Below the pieces are notes generated by a model, which saw only the letters and a list, made by a program, of their open reading frames with translations, did not search any database and had not been told where the DNA came from. The translations under genes were made by a program, and so were the position numbers. Below, in pieces: positions 3,740-10,783 of a DNA stretch of 64,000 bases (position 1 is the first letter of the stretch; each line of letters starts with the position of its first letter). The DNA is from Betaproteobacteria bacterium (lineage in GTDB: Bacteria; Pseudomonadota; Gammaproteobacteria; Burkholderiales; Burkholderiaceae). The stretch is taken from positions 1-64,000 of the forward strand of contig WRHV01000002.1 of assembly GCA_009783065.1 (NCBI GenBank), written 5' to 3'.

Positions 3740-4330
3740 ATGTTGAGATCTATTTGTGTTTATTGTGGTTCACGCATGGGAAAATCCGAAGTCCATGCGG
3801 AGGCTGCGCGAGCACTGGCCCAGGAAATGGTCAATGATAATATTGCCCTCATCTATGGAGGAGCCAGAATCGGTTTAATGGGCATTCTTGCAGATGAGAT
3901 ACTACGGTTAGGTGGAGAAGTGACTGGCGTTATCCCCAAAAACCTGCTCGAAAAAGAGGTCGGGCATGATGGCCTCACCCGCCTTTATATTGTTAAGGAT
4001 ATGCACGAAAGAAAATCCATGATGGCCGATCTGGCTGATGGATTCATCGCCATGTCCGGCGGTATGGGCACACTGGATGAATTGTTTGAAACCTTTACCT
4101 GGAGCATGTTGGGTTTGCATAAAAAACCCATCGGCATTCTGAACATCAACGGCTTTTATGACAGTTTGATCGGTCTGGTGGACCATCTGGTCAACCAGGG
4201 ATTTCTTGAATCCCACTATACCAATACGCTGTTCACGGCATCTGACCCCAAAGCGCTTGTCAATAAACTCCGCGAAGCGCCCGCTACCGAAGAAACAGAA
4301 AGCAAAACCGCTGCGCGTTTTCTAATTTAA
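3740..4330 (+). CDS. LOG-family protein (nucleoside 5'-monophosphate phosphoribohydrolase)
   Basis: 196 residues from ATG 3740, where the family similarity begins (MLRSICVYCGSRMG). The frame is open back to 3485 but that part overlaps the GntR gene and looks non-coding. It has the Rossmann-like lysine decarboxylase-like fold of the LOG/YvdD family, with YGGARIGLMG and an SGGMGTLDELFETF loop. The family removes ribose 5'-phosphate from cytokinin-like or purine nucleotides; the in vivo substrate in bacteria is uncertain. The canonical PGGxGTxxE loop has Ser in place of Pro, while the Gly, Thr and Glu residues are kept. Its last 4 bases overlap the convergent cystathionine beta-lyase-like gene. 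Confidence 0.85.
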   Translation: MLRSICVYCGSRMGKSEVHAEAARALAQEMVNDNIALIYGGARIGLMGILADEILRLGGEVTGVIPKNLLEKEVGHDGLTRLYIVKDMHERKSMMADLADGFIAMSGGMGTLDELFETFTWSMLGLHKKPIGILNINGFYDSLIGLVDHLVNQGFLESHYTNTLFTASDPKALVNKLREAPATEETESKTAARFLI

Positions 4331-5499
4331 GACAACACAGAAAAAGCCTGTTCAAGATCAGCGATCAGATCTGAAGTTTCCTCAAGGCCAATATACAGCC
4401 GCACCAGTTGATGGCCGTGATAATTCCAATCCTTGCGTGTAACAGGAATACGGAATGGCGCGCACAAACTGTGTTCCCCACCCCAGCTAAATCCCAATTT
4501 AAAAAGCTGCAATGCCTCTACAAAACGGTCTGTTTGCGCTTCGGTATAACGCTTATCAAAGAGAATGGAAAACAAGCCGCCTGAACCGGTAAAATCCCGC
4601 TTGAAAAATTCATGCCCCGGACAATCCTCAAACGCAGGATGTAATATACGGCTGATCTCCGGACGCGTCTTGAGCCATGTGGCAACTTCCATCGCCGCAT
4701 CGCCATGTTTTTCAAATCGAAGCTTCATCGTAGGAAGATTGCGCAAAACGAGATACACATCATCTGCGCCTACCCCCATCCCTAAACGCATATGCGCCAA
4801 ACAAAGCCTGCGGTACAAATCGTCATCCCGCGTCATGACGGCGCCCATAAGCAAATCGGACGCCCCCGCCTGGTACTTGGTCAAGGCATGCAAAACGACA
4901 TCTGCCCCATGCCCAAAAGCATCAAAAGCCAGCCCGGCAGACCAGGTATTATCCAAGACGACAATAACGCCTCTATCGTGCGCCGCCTTGCAAATAGCGG
5001 GAATATCCGGCACTTCCATGGTAACCGAGCCCGGCGTCTCAGCCCAGATCAGGCGGGTATTGGGCTGGATCATTTCGGCAATGCCGGCACCTGTCATTGG
5101 ATCATAATAGCGGGCAGTTACCCCAAAATCTTCCGCCAGCCAATCACCCAGTTCACGATTAGGGTTGTAGACATTTTCAGGTATCAATACATCATCACCC
5201 GCACGCAGAAAAGCAAAATCCACTACGGCAATGGCAGCCAGTCCGCTAGGAGCCAAAATACAGTGTTTTCCCCCTTCTATTTCCGCCAGTCGCGCTTCCA
5301 GCGTAAAGGTCGTCGGTGTACCCTGGAGCCCATACGTATAAGCATCTCGTCTCTGCCAGTCGCGGGCACGCATGGCTGCAACACTTTTGAAAAGCACAGT
5401 TGATGCACGATATACCGGCGGCGGGAAAGCGCCAAAATCAGCGGGAGGCTGATAATCACTGTGAAGGAGCCTGGTTTGACGTTTTTTTGATTTATTCAT
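4327..5499 (-). CDS. metC: Cystathionine beta-lyase-like PLP enzyme
   Basis: 390 residues, the usual length for the Cys/Met-metabolism PLP family (cystathionine gamma-synthase fold). The PLP lysine is K208 in the ALTKYQAGASD segment, and DNTWSAGLAF carries the PLP-binding Asp. Cystathionine beta-lyase splits cystathionine into homocysteine, pyruvate and ammonia in methionine synthesis. The motif spectrum (TYGLQGTPTT, ETPGSVTMEVPDI) matches the MetC branch better than MetB. The ATG start has a CAGGA sequence about 9 bases upstream. The gene heads a run of sulfur-related genes with the ThiF-like and MetB-like genes. A role in cysteine desulfhydration is an alternative. Confidence 0.85.
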   Translation of the reverse strand: MNKSKKRQTRLLHSDYQPPADFGAFPPPVYRASTVLFKSVAAMRARDWQRRDAYTYGLQGTPTTFTLEARLAEIEGGKHCILAPSGLAAIAVVDFAFLRAGDDVLIPENVYNPNRELGDWLAEDFGVTARYYDPMTGAGIAEMIQPNTRLIWAETPGSVTMEVPDIPAICKAAHDRGVIVVLDNTWSAGLAFDAFGHGADVVLHALTKYQAGASDLLMGAVMTRDDDLYRRLCLAHMRLGMGVGADDVYLVLRNLPTMKLRFEKHGDAAMEVATWLKTRPEISRILHPAFEDCPGHEFFKRDFTGSGGLFSILFDKRYTEAQTDRFVEALQLFKLGFSWGGEHSLCAPFRIPVTRKDWNYHGHQLVRLYIGLEETSDLIADLEQAFSVLS

Positions 5500-5679: not shown

Positions 5680-6426
5680 TTATAAAGAACAAACAACACA
5701 TGCGGGATTCTTTTCCAAGGTAAAACTGGACCATTCCATTTTGAGTGCGTCCATAAGCAACAAACGACCCGCAAGTGATTCACCTATTCCTGCCGCCAGT
5801 TTGACAGCTTCCGCAGCCTGCATGGTTCCCAGTATACCTGTCATCGGAGCGAAGACGCCAAACTGCGAGGCTTTCCTATCATCAAAATCAAGATCTGATG
5901 AATAAAGGCATGAATAACAAGGCGAATTTGCGTCACGCATATCATAAACAGATATTTGTCCTGAAAAATGTAAGGCGGCGGCAGACACCAGCGGACGCAT
6001 GAATTTGACACAAGCACGATTAATCAGATGACGGGTCGCAAAATTATCACAGCAATCAAGCACGATGGTTGCTGCTTCGACCAGCTCATCAACACTTTTT
6101 TCATTTAACCGTTCCATCACTGGATAAATCTGCACATCCGGATTAATCCAGTTCAACGTCTGTTTAGCTGACAGCGCCTTGGGAATACCGATTCTGTCCG
6201 TCCCATGAAGAATCTGTCGCTGCAAATTGGTCAGATCAGCAACATCATCATCTACCACCGTAATCTTCCCGACTCCTGATGATGCCAGATAGTAAAGAGC
6301 AGGAGACCCAAGTCCTCCCGCTCCCACAACCAGCACATGCGCTTTCATGATCTTTTCCTGGCCCACTTCACCCAATTCACTTAAAAGAATGTGCCGGGAA
6401 TACCTGCTCATTTGTAACGAATCCAT
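5680..6426 (-). CDS. ThiF/MoeB/HesA-family adenylyltransferase
   Basis: 248 residues. This E1-like enzyme adenylates the C-terminal glycine of a small sulfur-carrier protein (MoaD, ThiS or a CysO-like protein). Visible features are the N-terminal RYSRHILL motif, the nucleotide-binding GAGGLGSPALYYL at about residues 35-47, the CCDNFATRHLIN segment, and two CxxC pairs (PCYSC and ACVVC near the C-terminus) that bind structural zinc in this family. MoeB and ThiF cannot be separated by motif alone. Its place beside cysK and metB suggests it could activate a sulfur carrier used in cysteine, thiamin or molybdopterin synthesis. It is divergent from metB with a shared palindromic control region. Confidence 0.85.
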   Translation of the reverse strand: MDSLQMSRYSRHILLSELGEVGQEKIMKAHVLVVGAGGLGSPALYYLASSGVGKITVVDDDVADLTNLQRQILHGTDRIGIPKALSAKQTLNWINPDVQIYPVMERLNEKSVDELVEAATIVLDCCDNFATRHLINRACVKFMRPLVSAAALHFSGQISVYDMRDANSPCYSCLYSSDLDFDDRKASQFGVFAPMTGILGTMQAAEAVKLAAGIGESLAGRLLLMDALKMEWSSFTLEKNPACVVCSL

Positions 6427-6506
6427 AATCTGCTTCCACCGCCTTTTCGGTTTGATTCAAAAACCAATCCTCAAAACCATAAAAAATTTTTTTATCGAGA
6501 ATTCAT

Positions 6507-6536
6507 ATACTATAATTCCTGTAGGAATTATAGTAT
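6507..6536. promoter_or_regulatory. 30-bp perfect palindrome over the metB promoter, candidate Rrf2 operator
   Basis: Two 14-base arms (left ATACTATAATTCCT, right its exact reverse complement) face each other across GT. The left arm contains a TATAAT box (6511-6516) for metB and the right arm gives the same box on the minus strand for the divergent ThiF-like gene. The metB ribosome-binding AAGG starts 2 bases after the palindrome. A bound protein would block both directions. Related half-sites occur upstream of cysK and of the Rrf2 gene. Confidence 0.6.
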
Positions 6537-6549
6537 AAGGTAAAAAATA

Positions 6550-7683
6550 ATGAAGATTGAAACCTTGCTGGCTCAGGCCGGCATACATCGGGATCCCCAA
6601 ACCGGCGCGATCTCAACACCTATATACCAATGCGCCACTTTCAGTCATCCGGCATTAGGAAAAAGCACTGGATATGACTATTCTCGCACAGCTAATCCCA
6701 CACGTTCAGCCCTTGAGTCGGTTTTACAGGAAATGGACAAGGGTGAACGCGCATGCGCATTCGCTTCCGGAATAGCGGCACTTGATGCAACATTAAGGCT
6801 TTTGCCTTCTCACAGCCGGATTGTCGTCACCGAAGATCCTTATGGAGGCACAATCCGTTTGCTGGAACATTTTTATAAAACAATCGGCATTACTCCGCTA
6901 TATGTAGACACATCCGACACAGATGCTACCATTAAAGCTCTTCAGGAAGAGGGTGTAAAAGCGCTTTTTCTCGAATTGCCGACCAACCCTCTTCTCAAGG
7001 TCGCGGAAATCAGCAAACTCTCGGAAGCTGCTCATAAAAAAGACTGTATCGTCATTGTCGACAATACCTTTTTAACGCCCTATCTTTTTCGCCCTCTTGA
7101 GCATGGGGCAGATGTGGCTGTTTACAGCGCCACAAAATATTTGGGTGGACATAACGATCTCGTGGCGGGAACGGTCACCACAAAAAGTGAGGCTCTAGGC
7201 AACCGGCTTGCATTTATTCAGAACGCCACAGGCGCATCACTTGGCCCAATGGATTCCTGGCTGCTTTTGAGGGGATTAAAAACCCTGGCTTTGAGAATCG
7301 AACAACAGCAGGCTAATGCCCAGAAAATTGCAGAATATCTGCGCAACCATCCAAGAATCAAAAAAGTCTACTATCCCGGGCTCATTGACAGCGAAGGACA
7401 CACCAGACTTAAACAGCAAGCCAATGGATTTGGCGCCGTACTTTCATTTGAAGTCACCGAACCCGAACGCATTGCCGCCATCCTTGAAAAAACAAAAGTT
7501 TTTTCTTTTGCTGAAAGTCTTGGCGGCGTTGAATCCCTGATCACCTATCCGGTCGCTCAAACACATGCAGATGTGCCGGAAGATACGAGACAACGCCTTG
7601 GCATCAATAATAGCCTGCTGCGACTATCTGTCGGAATCGAAAATGCAGCAGACCTGATTGCCGACTTGGAAAATGTCCTGTGA
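6550..7683 (+). CDS. metB: Cystathionine gamma-synthase / gamma-lyase-type PLP enzyme
   Basis: 377 residues of the Cys/Met-metabolism PLP family. K196 in SATKYLGGHNDLVAG is the PLP lysine, DNTFLTPYLFRPLEHGADV precedes it, and YDYSRTANPTR near residues 42-52 is the substrate- and phosphate-binding segment. Family members either build cystathionine from an activated homoserine and cysteine (MetB/MetI) or cleave it (MccB/MetC); motifs fit the MetB/MetI and MccB group. The short N-terminus (KIETLLAQAG) resembles the low-GC Gram-positive MetI/MccB type. The promoter sits inside a 30-bp palindrome, so strong regulation is expected. It is convergent with cysK. Confidence 0.85.
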   Translation: MKIETLLAQAGIHRDPQTGAISTPIYQCATFSHPALGKSTGYDYSRTANPTRSALESVLQEMDKGERACAFASGIAALDATLRLLPSHSRIVVTEDPYGGTIRLLEHFYKTIGITPLYVDTSDTDATIKALQEEGVKALFLELPTNPLLKVAEISKLSEAAHKKDCIVIVDNTFLTPYLFRPLEHGADVAVYSATKYLGGHNDLVAGTVTTKSEALGNRLAFIQNATGASLGPMDSWLLLRGLKTLALRIEQQQANAQKIAEYLRNHPRIKKVYYPGLIDSEGHTRLKQQANGFGAVLSFEVTEPERIAAILEKTKVFSFAESLGGVESLITYPVAQTHADVPEDTRQRLGINNSLLRLSVGIENAADLIADLENVL

Positions 7684-7709
7684 AATAAAAGCATGTCCTG
7701 ATAATGGAC

Positions 7710-7740
7710 GGTGAGCAGCAAACAGCATTTGCGGCTCACC
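7710..7740. terminator. Strong hairpin between convergent metB and cysK
   Basis: GGTGAGC (7710-7716) pairs with GCTCACC (7734-7740), and the inner GCAAA pairs with TTTGC around a CAGCA loop. This gives a long nearly continuous stem in the gap between the two stop codons. There is no T-run on either side, so it is a possible transcript-end stabiliser or bidirectional terminator and not a classic intrinsic terminator. Confidence 0.45.
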
Positions 7741-7773
7741 CATGTCCCGAACAGGCTTTACCGGCAAAATCAG

Positions 7774-8697
7774 TCAGAAAAGAAGCGACAAGTAGCGTTC
7801 ACCCGTATCCGGCAGCAATGCGACAACGGTTTTTCCTTTATTTTCCTCGCGGCCGGCAATCTGCATGGCAGCCCAAAGCGCGGCACCTGAAGATATCCCG
7901 ACCAGAACGCCCTCGAAACGGGTAATAGCGCGTGCCGTCTCAAAAGCATCCTCATTTTTCACGCGAATGATGGTATCAATCAGGTCTGTTTTCAGGACGT
8001 TAGGCACAAAGCCTGCTCCAATTCCCTGTATTTTATGCGGCCCACTGCGTCCCCCTGACAATACCGGCGAATCATCAGGTTCAACAGCGACAAGCTGGAT
8101 AGATTGATTATGCTGCTTCAGCCACTCTCCGACCCCTGTTATCGTCCCGCCTGTACCAACACCGGCGACAAAAAAATCGATTTGTCCATCGAGGTCATCC
8201 CAAATTTCAGGACCGGTTGTTTCAAAATGAGCCTGAGGATTCGCTTCATTTTCAAACTGCCCAGGGATAAAACTATTGGCAATACCCGCAGCCAATTCGT
8301 GCGCCTTTTCAATAGCGCCTTTCATGCCTTTGGCGCCATCCGTCAACACCAGTTCCGCGCCATATGCCTTAAGCAGGCTTCTTCTCTCCATACTCATGGT
8401 TTCCGGCATCGTCAGGATCAGACGATACCCGCGTGCGGCTGCGATCATGGCCAGCCCAATACCGGTGTTGCCAGATGTCGGCTCAATAATGACTGAATCC
8501 GGTTTCAGTTTCCCCGCATTTTCTGCCGACTGAATCATGTACTGGGCAACACGATCCTTGACGCTACCGCCAGGATTAAAATACTCCAGTTTCACAATCA
8601 GCCTCGCTTTCAAGCCATACTGCCTGGAAAATCGGGTCAACTCCAGAAGCGGCGTCTTTCCAATCAGCTCAGAAACGCTTTGATATACGTGTGCCAT
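7774..8697 (-). CDS. cysK: Cysteine synthase (O-acetylserine sulfhydrylase)
   Basis: 307 residues from the ATG at 8697, chosen because AGGGGA lies just before it; the in-frame ATG at 8709 is itself part of that ribosome-binding region. K47 in [10 protein letters not shown] is the PLP lysine, and SGNTG at 75-79 is the substrate loop. The enzyme makes cysteine from O-acetylserine and sulfide in the cytoplasm. The C-terminus ([13 protein letters not shown]) is typical of CysK. It lies directly downstream of an Rrf2 regulator on the same strand, with a 41-bp inverted repeat between them. In Firmicutes CysK is the co-repressor partner of the Rrf2 protein CymR, so this linkage may be functional and not only metabolic. 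Confidence 0.93.
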
Positions 8698-8758
8698 TTT
8701 TCCCCTCATATATGCTTGTCACTCAAGTATCCGACCGCCCCATACTGTGCCGCAAGCA

Positions 8759-8799
8759 TACTATATAAATCCTATATATTAAATAGGATTTATATAGTA
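8759..8799. promoter_or_regulatory. Perfect 17-bp inverted repeat upstream of cysK, candidate Rrf2 operator
   Basis: TACTATATAAATCCTAT (8759-8775) is repeated as its exact reverse complement (8783-8799) around the 7-base spacer ATATTAA. The outer TACTATA and the inner TCCT/AGGA bases match the metB palindrome, but the spacing between the CCT and AGG triplets is 11 instead of 2, about one helical turn more. It lies about 60-100 bases upstream of the cysK start and downstream of the Rrf2 gene, so it probably carries the cysK promoter. Confidence 0.6.
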
Positions 8800-8858
8800 A
8801 ATAGTCTCATCAACCGTTACGAATACCTCGTCATTAGAAACTGACGTTTATTTTCCAT

Positions 8859-9293
8859 TCAGATAAAGTAATCCGGCATTCTCTTTTCTTTTTGAGCCTT
8901 TGCCAGATCCTCAAGCGTGATGCTTTTCAAATACTGACGGAGATGCTCATGCAGATCGCACCAGAAATCATTCGTTGCACACTGGCTCATCCTGTTGCAA
9001 ACATATCCCTTTTCAAGGCAAGGCGCCGGGGCAAAACTTCCTTCCGTTGCCTGCAAAATATCGCTAACCGTCATATCTGAAGCTTTTTTGGCAAGCCTGT
9101 AACCTCCCTGAGCGCCACGCATGCTCAGAAGTAAACCCGCTTTTGTCATCAGAGAAACGATCTGTTCCAGATACTTCAGCGAAATATCCTGGCGCTGGGA
9201 AATATTCTTAAGGGAGACGGAACTGTCATTCTCATTCAGAGCCAGTTCTACCATCAAACGCAACGCATATCTGGATTTGGTAGAAAATCTCAT
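8859..9293 (-). CDS. Rrf2-family regulator with IscR-like cysteines
   Basis: 144 residues. The N-terminal winged helix (MRFSTKSRYALRLMVELAL and the SLKYLEQIVSLMTKAGLL recognition region) is diagnostic of Rrf2 proteins. In the C-terminal part Cys92, Cys99 and Cys105 echo the IscR 2Fe-2S ligands (spaced 6 and 5, against 5 and 5 in IscR), and a fourth Cys112 follows in NDFWCDL. Known members are IscR, NsrR, RsrR and CymR. The setting next to cysK and near metB favours a CymR-like control of cysteine metabolism, while the cysteines suggest Fe-S or thiol sensing; both are inference. Its own upstream region carries a related inverted repeat that reaches the ribosome-binding site, so autoregulation is likely. 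Confidence 0.88.
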   Translation of the reverse strand: MRFSTKSRYALRLMVELALNENDSSVSLKNISQRQDISLKYLEQIVSLMTKAGLLLSMRGAQGGYRLAKKASDMTVSDILQATEGSFAPAPCLEKGYVCNRMSQCATNDFWCDLHEHLRQYLKSITLEDLAKAQKEKRMPDYFI

Positions 9294-9297
9294 AAAT

Positions 9298-9328
9298 TAA
9301 AATACCTAAACTTAAGTAGGAATAATAT
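9298..9328. promoter_or_regulatory. Degenerate inverted repeat at the Rrf2 gene start, candidate autoregulatory site
   Basis: Read on the plus strand, AATACCT (9301-9307) and AGGAATAATAT (9318-9328) flank AAACTTAAGT. The AGGAAT half matches the right arm of the metB palindrome, and the CCT-to-AGG spacing of 10 resembles the cysK site. On the gene's own strand the AGGT of the site is also the likely ribosome-binding sequence, so binding could block both transcription and initiation. Confidence 0.4.
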
Positions 9329-9424: not shown

Positions 9425-10783
9425 CTAGACAGACTCCAGCTCTCCCCACATATCATGCGCATCTGCACTCGTGATTTTGACATTGACAAATTCGCCTGCT
9501 TTCAATTTTTTCCGCATCCCTTTCGGCTTTTTGACATAGACCACCCCATCAATCTCCGGCGCGTCGGCAGAAGACCTTCCGACTGCGCCACCACGGATTG
9601 GCTCATCCAATAAGACGCGTACCGTTTTTCCGATTTTTTGCTGTAGTTTTTCACGCGAAATGGCTTCCTGCATCATCATGAGCTGCGCCCTGCGTTCCTC
9701 ACGAACGGTTTGCGGCACCGGATTTGCCAGTGCATTTGCTGCCGCGCCTTCTACCGGCGAATAGGAAAAACATCCAAGCCGGTCTATTTGGGCCTCTTTG
9801 AGAAAATCCATCAGGTAGCCAAATTCCGCCTCTGTTTCTCCCGGGAAACCGGTAATGAATGTGGAACGGATGGTTATATCCGGACACATTTCACGCCATG
9901 CAGCAATCCGTTCGAGATGCTTTTCACCACTGGCAGGCCGCTTCATCCTTTTTAACACATCCGGATGCGCATGCTGCAAAGGCACGTCAAGATAAGGCAA
10001 TATCAGGCCATCCCTCATCAACGAAAGCAATTGGTCAATATGGGGATAGGGATAGATGTAATGTAAACGAATCCAGGCATCATACCGTTGCGCCAGATTT
10101 CCCAGCGCTTCCGCCAACTGGGTAATGTGCGTCTTAATTGGCCGCCCTCCCCAAAACCCTGTCCGGCATTTCATGTCCAGACCATAGGCACCGGTATCCT
10201 GTGAAACCAAAAGCAGTTCTTTTACACCTGAATCAAGCAGCCTCTCCCCTTCAACTAGAATATCGCCAACAGGACGCGTAACGAGCTGGCCTCTAAGCGA
10301 TGGAATAATGCAAAAGGTACAGCCGTGATTACACCCTTCGGAAATCTTAAGGTAGGCATAATGCCGAGGAGTCAGCTTGACGCCTTGCGGCGGAACCAGA
10401 TCAACAAAGGGTTCATGCGGTCGCGGTAAATGCTGGTGGACAGCGTGCATAACCTCTTCCAATGCATTGGGTCCGGTTACCTCCAGCACATCCGGTAAGG
10501 TTTGATGGATAAATGTTTTGCCTTCACGATCTTTTCTGGCACCTAGGCAACCGGTCACAATCACCTTGCCGTTTTCAGACAATGCCTCGCTAATGGTTTC
10601 GAGCGATTCTTCAACGGCTGCATCAATAAATCCGCACGTATTGATAATAACAAGATCAGCTTCGCCATAGGTAGCAACCGTCTCATAACCTTCTGACCGC
10701 AAACGTGTCAAAATATGCTCGGAATCCACCAGCGCCTTGGGACAGCCCAACGAAACAAAACCAATCCTTTTTCGTATACTCAT
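9425..10783 (-). CDS. rimO: Ribosomal protein S12 methylthiotransferase
   Basis: 452 residues, standard for RimO. It adds a methylthio group to the conserved aspartate of ribosomal protein S12 using radical SAM chemistry. The N-terminal UPF0004 domain carries Cys14, Cys50 and Cys79 for the auxiliary 4Fe-4S cluster. The radical-SAM motif is CNHGCTFC (Cys151, Cys155, Cys158), and the C-terminal TRAM domain is visible from about residue 375. The opening [16 protein letters not shown] is characteristic of RimO over MiaB. It lies alone between the Rrf2 gene and pgeF. Confidence 0.95.

Follow-up and report, generated by a model that had tools for sequence, protein, structure and literature searches.

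The question raised by this locus is whether an Rrf2-family regulator encoded beside a cysteine synthase gene controls the neighboring genes of sulfur amino acid metabolism, and how it came to stand where it does. The locus lies in a stretch of 64,000 nucleotides (positions 1 to 64,000 of contig WRHV01000002.1, assembly GCA_009783065.1, deposited as Betaproteobacteria bacterium), and this whole stretch is called the window. A first inspection of its sequence, referred to here as the original prediction, had proposed a local Rrf2 regulon with related palindromes at metB, cysK, and the Rrf2 gene itself. We consider it probable that bases 5680-9293 are a self-contained, horizontally acquired cysteine/methionine cassette (moeB, metB, cysK, and rrf2) between metC and rimO, controlled by the Rrf2 protein through the operators, with the signal most likely arriving via CysK. 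The repeats, the sites (scored in bits with the matrix described below), and the cassette genes are as follows.

6506-6537, no strand: inverted repeat at metB, 32 bp, with 15-nt arms that are 100% complementary and 2 nt between them
8759-8799, no strand: inverted repeat at cysK, 41 bp, with 20-nt arms that are 95% complementary (one mismatch) and 1 nt between them
8767..8791, no strand: putative cysK operator, CCT-N11-AGG, within the repeat at 8759-8799; 27.4 bits, rank 1 of the window
6505..6529, no strand: putative metB/moeB operator, register 1, ACT-N11-AGG; 23.3 bits, rank 2 of the window
6514..6538, no strand: putative metB/moeB operator, register 2, CCT-N11-AGT, which mirrors register 1 at a 9-bp offset; 16.1 bits, rank 3
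9301..9324, no strand: candidate rrf2 autoregulatory site, CCT-N10-AGG, degenerate, CCTAAACTTAAGTAGG
8859..9293, reverse strand: rrf2, a 144-residue Rrf2-family regulator with Cys92/Cys99/Cys105 and the C-terminal tail PDYFI; Pfam PF02082
7774..8709, reverse strand: cysK, O-acetylserine sulfhydrylase of clostridial type; NCBIfam TIGR01139, 455 bits (cut-off 350.95)
6550..7683, forward strand: metB/mccB-like pyridoxal phosphate enzyme, cystathionine gamma-synthase or gamma-lyase type; Pfam PF01053
5680..6426, reverse strand: moeB/thiF-like adenylyltransferase, divergent from metB; NCBIfam PRK05690, 288.7 bits (cut-off 266)

The analysis confirms the inverted repeats of metB and cysK, and chance is unlikely to account for them. 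Perfect arms of at least 15 nt with a gap of 0 to 3 are found at one place in the window, and 200 Markov-1 windows contain none. If gaps of 0 to 20 are allowed, the window has 4, and only 1 of 60 simulated windows has any. The repeats agree with their first description. A perfect 30-bp repeat had been reported at metB from 6507, and we find two perfect 15-nt arms at 6506-6537; the outer 17 nt of the cysK arms are perfect, as had been noted; and the degenerate repeat at the Rrf2 gene is present at 9301-9324, although it is statistically marginal. The CCT-to-AGG spacings, previously given as 2 at metB and 10 to 11 elsewhere, are on recount 2 (metB), 11 (cysK), and 10 (rrf2).

A motif was then learned with the window excluded. 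Relatives of the Rrf2 protein were fetched from genome contigs, and the best 80 of 578 confirmed places served as training loci; these are Bacillota by title except L019 (Coriobacteriaceae), L023 (Succinatimonas), L039 and L042 (Acholeplasmatales), and L040 (Treponema). A tblastn search of the 80 loci gave stretches upstream of 81 rrf2, 31 cysK, and 24 metB-like genes, 136 in total. The simple pattern CCT-N10-12-AGG is found at 13/31 cysK genes (shuffle 3.2, maximum 7) and at 8/24 metB-like genes (shuffle 1.9, maximum 4). Its count at rrf2 promoters, 16/81 versus a shuffle mean of 9.6 and maximum of 19, is unconvincing, and we therefore learned a full matrix by palindromic expectation-maximisation on the 136 stretches. 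The resulting motif is aaaTCcTAttaaattaaTAgGAttt. Sites of at least 15 bits occur at 40/81 rrf2, 11/31 cysK, and 12/24 metB-like genes, compared with shuffle means of 1.0, 0.2, and 0.6 (these are in-sample counts). Two of the training loci outside Bacillota have the same rrf2 circuit with predicted operators, at 22.2 and 19.3 bits in Treponema (L040, 5967-6501) and at 16.9 and 14.6 bits in Succinatimonas (L023, 5930-8299); both are likely to be further transfers out of Bacillota.

Over the 64-kb window, the window-free matrix places cysK first, metB second, and the mirror register of metB third. Two of the three proposed promoters are at the top of the list. In their own promoters, the cysK and metB values are matched by 0 of 1000 column-shuffled palindromic matrices and by 0 of 2000 local shuffles. 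In none of 300 Markov-2 windows does the top score reach that of metB (the maximum is 23.3 after rounding). The top scores of 40 Markov-1 windows average 12.5, with a maximum of 23.8, so that at least one of these windows outscored the metB site, while none outscored cysK. This last result, and the fact that the repeats are AT-rich and lie in 5' regions, would fit an explanation in which they are chance AT-rich palindromes or RNA elements such as terminators, attenuators, or riboswitches. We regard that explanation as very improbable, given the remaining shuffle controls and the conservation in relatives described below. We rejected an RNA element on the evidence of Rfam, which at gathering cut-offs yields just four tRNAs in the window, and of a terminator scan that gave no site within these repeats.

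The proposed regulon is supported at metB (with moeB) and at cysK, whereas at rrf2 it is only probable. The rrf2 site is marginal and is the weak one of the three: it scores 10.4 bits and ranks seventh in the window with the 25-bp matrix, and it is equalled by 41 of 2000 local shuffles and by 32 of 1000 shuffled matrices. With a 24-bp matrix from which the central column has been removed, it scores 14.7 bits and ranks first (the next is 12.5), but this matrix was devised after the rrf2 site had been seen, and its rank is therefore no independent test. In the 24-bp form, sites of at least 15 bits occur at 9/81 rrf2 promoters, compared with a shuffle mean of 1.4 and maximum of 5. A 14.1-bit place at 2748-2772 upstream of ggt ranks fifth, above rrf2 (34 of 2000 local shuffles are as good). 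We rejected ggt as a fourth target: the place overlaps the palindrome TCTGATAT(G/A)TCAG(A/G)T, which is more likely the operator of the neighboring GntR/FCD regulator. The palindrome in the window, TCTGATATGTCAGAT, lies within 2740-2790, between ggt (947-2698) and the GntR/FCD regulator gene. A palindrome of this type is also present upstream of ggt in two Oxalobacter-like genomes (G1309 and G1368) and is probably that regulator's own operator.

The short spacing at metB had been taken to suggest that a single Rrf2 protein can bind in either of two geometries, the half-sites being separated by 2 bp at metB and by 10 to 11 bp elsewhere. The spacings are indeed as given, and the operator of Oxalobacter vibrioformis has the same TATAATTCCT...AGGAATTATA arms as the metB repeat with an 11-bp spacer between them, so it is plausible that the metB repeat arose by loss of about 9 bp in its middle. 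After such a loss, however, the outer ACT elements would restore the standard spacing in two overlapping registers, ACT-N11-AGG and CCT-N11-AGT, of which the former by itself reaches 23.3 bits. The TAGT that serves as second half-site is also found in the rrf2 promoters of L054, L058, and L064. Since the metB palindrome holds two overlapping sites of ordinary 11-bp spacing, a second geometry is not required, and we consider this part of the original prediction to be quite unlikely.

Are these sites conserved outside the training set? The RimO encoded next to the cassette has its best named match in O. vibrioformis (84%), and for this reason we term the host Oxalobacter-like. Six Oxalobacter-like genomes were reached through RimO (6/304 genomes of the G174 family at the cut-off); their loci are absent from matrix training, and their scores use the base composition of each stretch. 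In G1309, taken to be O. vibrioformis, metB-metB2-cysK-rrf2-moeB run in one direction with a single 26.7-bit operator directly before metB (the next best in 15 kb is 9.7), and a second cysK has a 15.7-bit site 137 bp upstream. G1253 has rrf2-cysK-metB with a 23.5-bit operator before rrf2 (next 13.8), and G1293 has metY-cysK-rrf2 with an 18.7-bit operator before metY (the next, at 13.0, overlaps it). In G1368, metB2-cysK-rrf2-moeB is present, but the contig end falls inside metB2, so the head of the operon is out of view. The other two are small assemblies of 1.2 and 1.4 Mb: cysK is present and cassette-type Rrf2 was not found in G1379, while neither was found in G1390. A further sister (Rrf2 68%, MetB 84%, and RimO 82% identical) and a Burkholderiaceae metagenome-assembled genome (Rrf2 51%, MetB 64%) also seem to carry an rrf2 and metB pair, presumably on a single contig in each case.

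Sites with a CC...GG frame could also belong to the host IscR rather than to the cassette Rrf2. An IscR-clade protein is encoded in five of the six Oxalobacter-like relatives (all but G1293), IscR type 2 sites have a 17-bp CC...GG frame (PMC4055776), and the IscR and CymR motifs are described as alike (PMC3828012). Compared by eye, however, the cysK operator CCTATATATTAAATAGG breaks the type 2 consensus CCxYAxxxxxxxTRxGG of PMC4055776 at the inner bases (A at Y, T at A, A at T, and T at R), and we rejected it as a type 2 site. The sites instead go with cassette-type Rrf2 in clostridial, Treponema, and Succinatimonas loci (the training set) and in Oxalobacter-like loci. Use of the sites by host IscR is thus improbable.

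The window Rrf2 protein itself belongs to the Rrf2 superfamily (PF02082, 134.7 bits, cut-off 30; TIGR00738, 137.8 bits, cut-off 73.3) but falls below the cut-offs for IscR (TIGR02010, 132.5 versus 207.55; NF008110, 109.2 versus 275) and for CymR (NF047409, 112.1 versus 195). It has the three IscR-type cysteines, C92, C99, and C105 (numbered C92, C98, and C104 in Escherichia coli IscR [PMC4055776]), which are invariant across a 36-row alignment of relatives and are found in 35/36 loci that have cysK or metB near. The histidine ligand is not kept, Asn108 being aligned with His107 of the IscR chain. One CymR-type trait, operators at cysteine/methionine genes, is present as judged by sequence only.

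The phylogeny argues that this protein was acquired. In neither of two trees does it group with IscR-like Pseudomonadota proteins. In a 137-row tree, it groups with P0002, P0003, P0007, and P0075 (99/92), nested in a set of 14 rows that includes proteins of Faecalibacterium and Subdoligranulum (98/93); 30 IscR-like Pseudomonadota proteins form a single group (99/98). This tree leaves out L081-L084 and L124-L126 (copies of other loci) and matches shorter than 120 residues, and it keeps the copies L127, L129, L130, L132, and L133. A second tree, of 79 rows, separates IscR-like from cassette-type proteins with 100/100 support. It omits 36 of the 80 training loci, retains only nine of the further Pseudomonadota loci, and leaves out six weak Rrf2 matches (L175-L180). 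In it, G1309 and G1368 lie near the window protein in a 12-row set (98/81), whereas G1253 and G1293 are placed apart. More than one entry of cassette Rrf2 into the Oxalobacter-like lineage is therefore likely, though not proven. Among 398 sampled Pseudomonadota genomes, the sole match above 108.2 bits is the seed genome G001, at 134.6.

CysK gives a similar picture. Identity of the window CysK is 67-69% with the proteins of G002, G003, and G004, which were reached via Clostridia, Treponema, and Desulfosporosinus loci, and 57-69% with the 31 cysK matches of the first 80 loci. The values are 59% for G001, 61-63% for the Burkholderiales genomes G884, G843, and G956, and 42, 55, and 60% for the Oxalobacter-family genomes G174, G913, and G320; 12 other Pseudomonadota genomes, chosen by RimO similarity, have best matches of 41-57%. 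The genes that flank the cassette are

4327-5499: metC
9425-10783: rimO

In five of the six Oxalobacter-like genomes (G1309, G1368, G1293, G1390, and G1253), metC directly adjoins rimO, and the cassette is for this reason best read as an insertion in the window's lineage. The original prediction had expected a betaproteobacterial counterpart of CymR. Based on the trees, the CysK identities, and the metC-rimO insertion, we conclude instead that the window Rrf2 is not native to its host but of Bacillota type, apart from the IscR-like proteins of Pseudomonadota.

Several observations bear on the surroundings of the cassette. In G1379, a cysK 80% identical to that of the window occupies the metC place beside rimO (L159, 1772-4082), and it appears that genes of sulfur amino acid metabolism are exchanged at the metC-rimO junction. 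The MoeB/ThiF-like gene is a cassette member in the window and in O. vibrioformis alike, its homologue (66%) being the final gene of the O. vibrioformis cassette operon (L198, 4616-5398); its product may serve to activate a sulfur carrier in the synthesis of cysteine or homocysteine, or it may simply be MoeB. The top NCBIfam model for the metB-like protein is PRK07671 (bifunctional cystathionine gamma-lyase), at 468 bits; as this is below the cut-off of 594, we leave its exact reaction between the gamma-synthase and gamma-lyase types. Searches with RimO at E 1e-215 in the G023 family (399 genomes) and with MetB at E 1e-120 in the G884 family (67 genomes) found no genome. Fifty plasmid records matched in part, at 60-80% identity, and in none did the match cover 80% of the query; among the five matches listed, three are annotated cysK. 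One Oxalobacter-like RimO (P0138) is deposited as Alistipes senegalensis and is probably a mislabelled metagenome-assembled genome.

How would such a regulator act? From the computed sites, statistics, conservation, phylogeny, insertion, and tail, we infer DNA binding, repression, sensing through CysK and O-acetylserine, and an iron-sulfur (Fe-S) input, as follows. An Rrf2 dimer would bind the 25-bp palindrome aaaTCcTA-N9-TAgGAttt, at one strong site at cysK, at two overlapping and identically spaced sites between the divergent metB and moeB genes, and at a weaker rrf2 site with one base less. Since the sites lie just upstream of the genes and a TATAAT hexamer lies inside the metB repeat (6511-6516), repression is the likely action, and it would occur when cysteine is plentiful. 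The cysteine signal would most likely be read through CysK. The free C-terminal [DN][FY]xI tail of Rrf2 would occupy the active site of CysK in the manner of the CysE tail. On DNA, Rrf2 would be stabilised by CysK and, when cysteine is short, released by O-acetylserine, as described for CymR (for the CysK-CymR mechanism, see PMC2940859, PMC3828012, and PMC9239247). The three IscR-type cysteines may add Fe-S or thiol input.

The tail is the feature that connects Rrf2 to CysK. In an AlphaFold2 model of Rrf2 with a mean predicted local distance difference test score (pLDDT) of 89.1, residues 141-144, past the last helix, are below 50. An aromatic-x-Ile end is found in 91/120 relatives listed, the window protein included, whereas 0/30 IscR-like Pseudomonadota proteins have Ile as their last residue. 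Tail positions were counted in the 109 relatives of 138-152 residues, again with the window protein, 11/120 having been excluded by length. Of the 109, 91 have Ile as the last residue, 92 have Phe or Tyr at position -3, and 79 have Asp or Asn at position -4, while positions -5 to -9 are highly variable. The C-terminal Ile of CysE anchors it in CysK, and high O-acetylserine dissociates the complex (PMC12895370; for an Ile tail as CysK ligand, see also PMC4961446). The peptide-binding residues of PaCysK are T71, S72, T75, and Q145 (PMC12895370). The window CysK has TSGNTG starting at residue 78 and Gln at 151, which we take, by motif and with no alignment, as their counterparts. The CysE-like tail, the literature on CysK ligands, and these residues lead us to favor CysK as the sensor. 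Based on linkage and the tail, we put the chance that CysK is a sensor and co-repressor at about even.

The competing explanation leaves Rrf2 in control of the cassette but limits its sensing to Fe-S clusters or thiols, via Cys92/99/105, with CysK merely a target. The invariance of the triad and its presence in nearly all loci with cysK or metB near (above) would fit this, as would the B. subtilis CymR chain, in which we found no Cys in the alignment with the window Rrf2, and the cassette Rrf2s of three Oxalobacter-like relatives, which keep the triad and lack the Ile tail. Against it stand the CysE-like tail on the window protein and 90 other listed relatives, the presence of cysK inside the fetched stretch in 31/80 loci, and the loss of the IscR histidine ligand. 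We consider sensing by the cysteines alone to be somewhat unlikely, and CysK remains the sensor that we favor. A wider proposal, which we offer tentatively and regard as less likely than not, would be that a large, so far undescribed Rrf2 subfamily, mostly in Bacillota, responds to two signals: Fe-S or redox state, by means of the IscR-type Cys triad, and the supply of cysteine, by means of a [DN][FY]xI tail that mimics CysE and docks in CysK. Its compact regulator-operator-enzyme cassette would have moved into Pseudomonadota, Oxalobacter-like bacteria among them. In the window, the single operon would have been divided into several units, with an operator for each.

A number of results weigh against an acquired, Rrf2-controlled cassette with CysK as sensor. 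For the operators, these are the marginal rrf2 site and the Markov-1 score above that of metB, both given above, and a promoter scan that gave no complete sigma-70-like promoter at metB or cysK. Conservation of the inverted repeats, which the original prediction had proposed as a test, is seen in O. vibrioformis, G1253, and G1293 but not at cysK of three Burkholderiales loci that keep the rrf2-cysK pair (L124-L126). These loci, with a convergent pair, are from G884, G843, and G956 (3/399 genomes of the G023 order, to which O. vibrioformis also belongs). L124 and L125 have nothing above 6.0 bits, and L126 has only a 15.0-bit site about 220 bp upstream of rrf2 and none good at cysK, so an rrf2-cysK pair can exist without this operator. 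The L124-L126 loci come from genomes of 2.2-2.5 Mb and encode a Bacillota-type Rrf2 ending in RLL; they may be a separate branch with changed specificity. For the tail, the Ile is absent from the cassette Rrf2s of G1309, G1253, and G1293 (which end in CMR, ICF, and ISM) and from L110-L112, which end in RLL. The association of the tail with linkage is weak (30/36 with cysK or metB near versus 25/43 without; Fisher p 0.026, with rows that are not independent; L045 was left out because its contig ends before any stop codon). For the origin, the trees have just 145 columns, and the bootstrap of the larger one had not converged. MetB is nearest, among named matches, to Oxalobacter, Planctomycetota, Lentisphaerae, and similar, not to clostridia, and the cassette is therefore composite.

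The kind of system is already known, since an Rrf2 protein encoded beside cysK in Clostridium acetobutylicum has been proposed as its CymR (PMC3828012). In the literature searched, which left most subscription journals outside, we found no report of a regulator-operator-enzyme transfer into an Oxalobacter-like genome and none of a Cys triad combined with a CysE-like tail; the available parts of PMC2869319 and PMC5480029 give no CymR consensus. The locus offers a testable case of a regulator that would have crossed phyla along with its target genes and the DNA sites it recognizes. The terminal Ile is a sequence-level prediction of the way in which CymR-like Rrf2 proteins could sense cysteine status via CysK. 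It also provides a simple 25-bp matrix for annotating clostridial cysteine regulons, where cysK control is partly unexplained: in three clostridia, cysK lacks a T-box and other mechanisms have been inferred (PMC2940859).

Among known systems, the window regulator is most readily compared with CymR of Bacillus subtilis, Staphylococcus aureus, and Listeria, with which it shares the Rrf2 fold and cysteine genes as likely targets; the operators at metB/moeB and cysK support the CymR-like role first suggested for it. CymR has CysK as partner (PMC2940859, PMC9239247), a partnership that is predicted for the window protein, and B. subtilis CymR is listed among the proteins with a C-terminal Ile motif (PMC12895370); the window Rrf2 ends in DYFI. 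Unlike CymR, it is under the NF047409 cut-off, has three IscR-type cysteines absent from the CymR chain, and shares a cassette with its targets in a Pseudomonadota host. The predicted CymR of C. acetobutylicum, CAC2236, is similar in that it is adjacent to cysK (CAC2235) and has predicted operators at cysK and at the regulator (PMC3828012), although the host there is clostridial. With IscR of E. coli and Yersinia, which has type 1 and type 2 sites, the window protein has in common the Rrf2 fold, the Cys triad, and the CC...GG site frame, but it differs in its separate tree group (99/98; 100/100), the inner bases of its sites, the lost His ligand, and its scores below the cut-offs. Finally, its aromatic-x-Ile tail resembles the C-terminal Ile of CysE in the cysteine synthase complex and is a candidate CysK plug, except that here the tail is on a DNA-binding protein, for which the CysK interaction is predicted.

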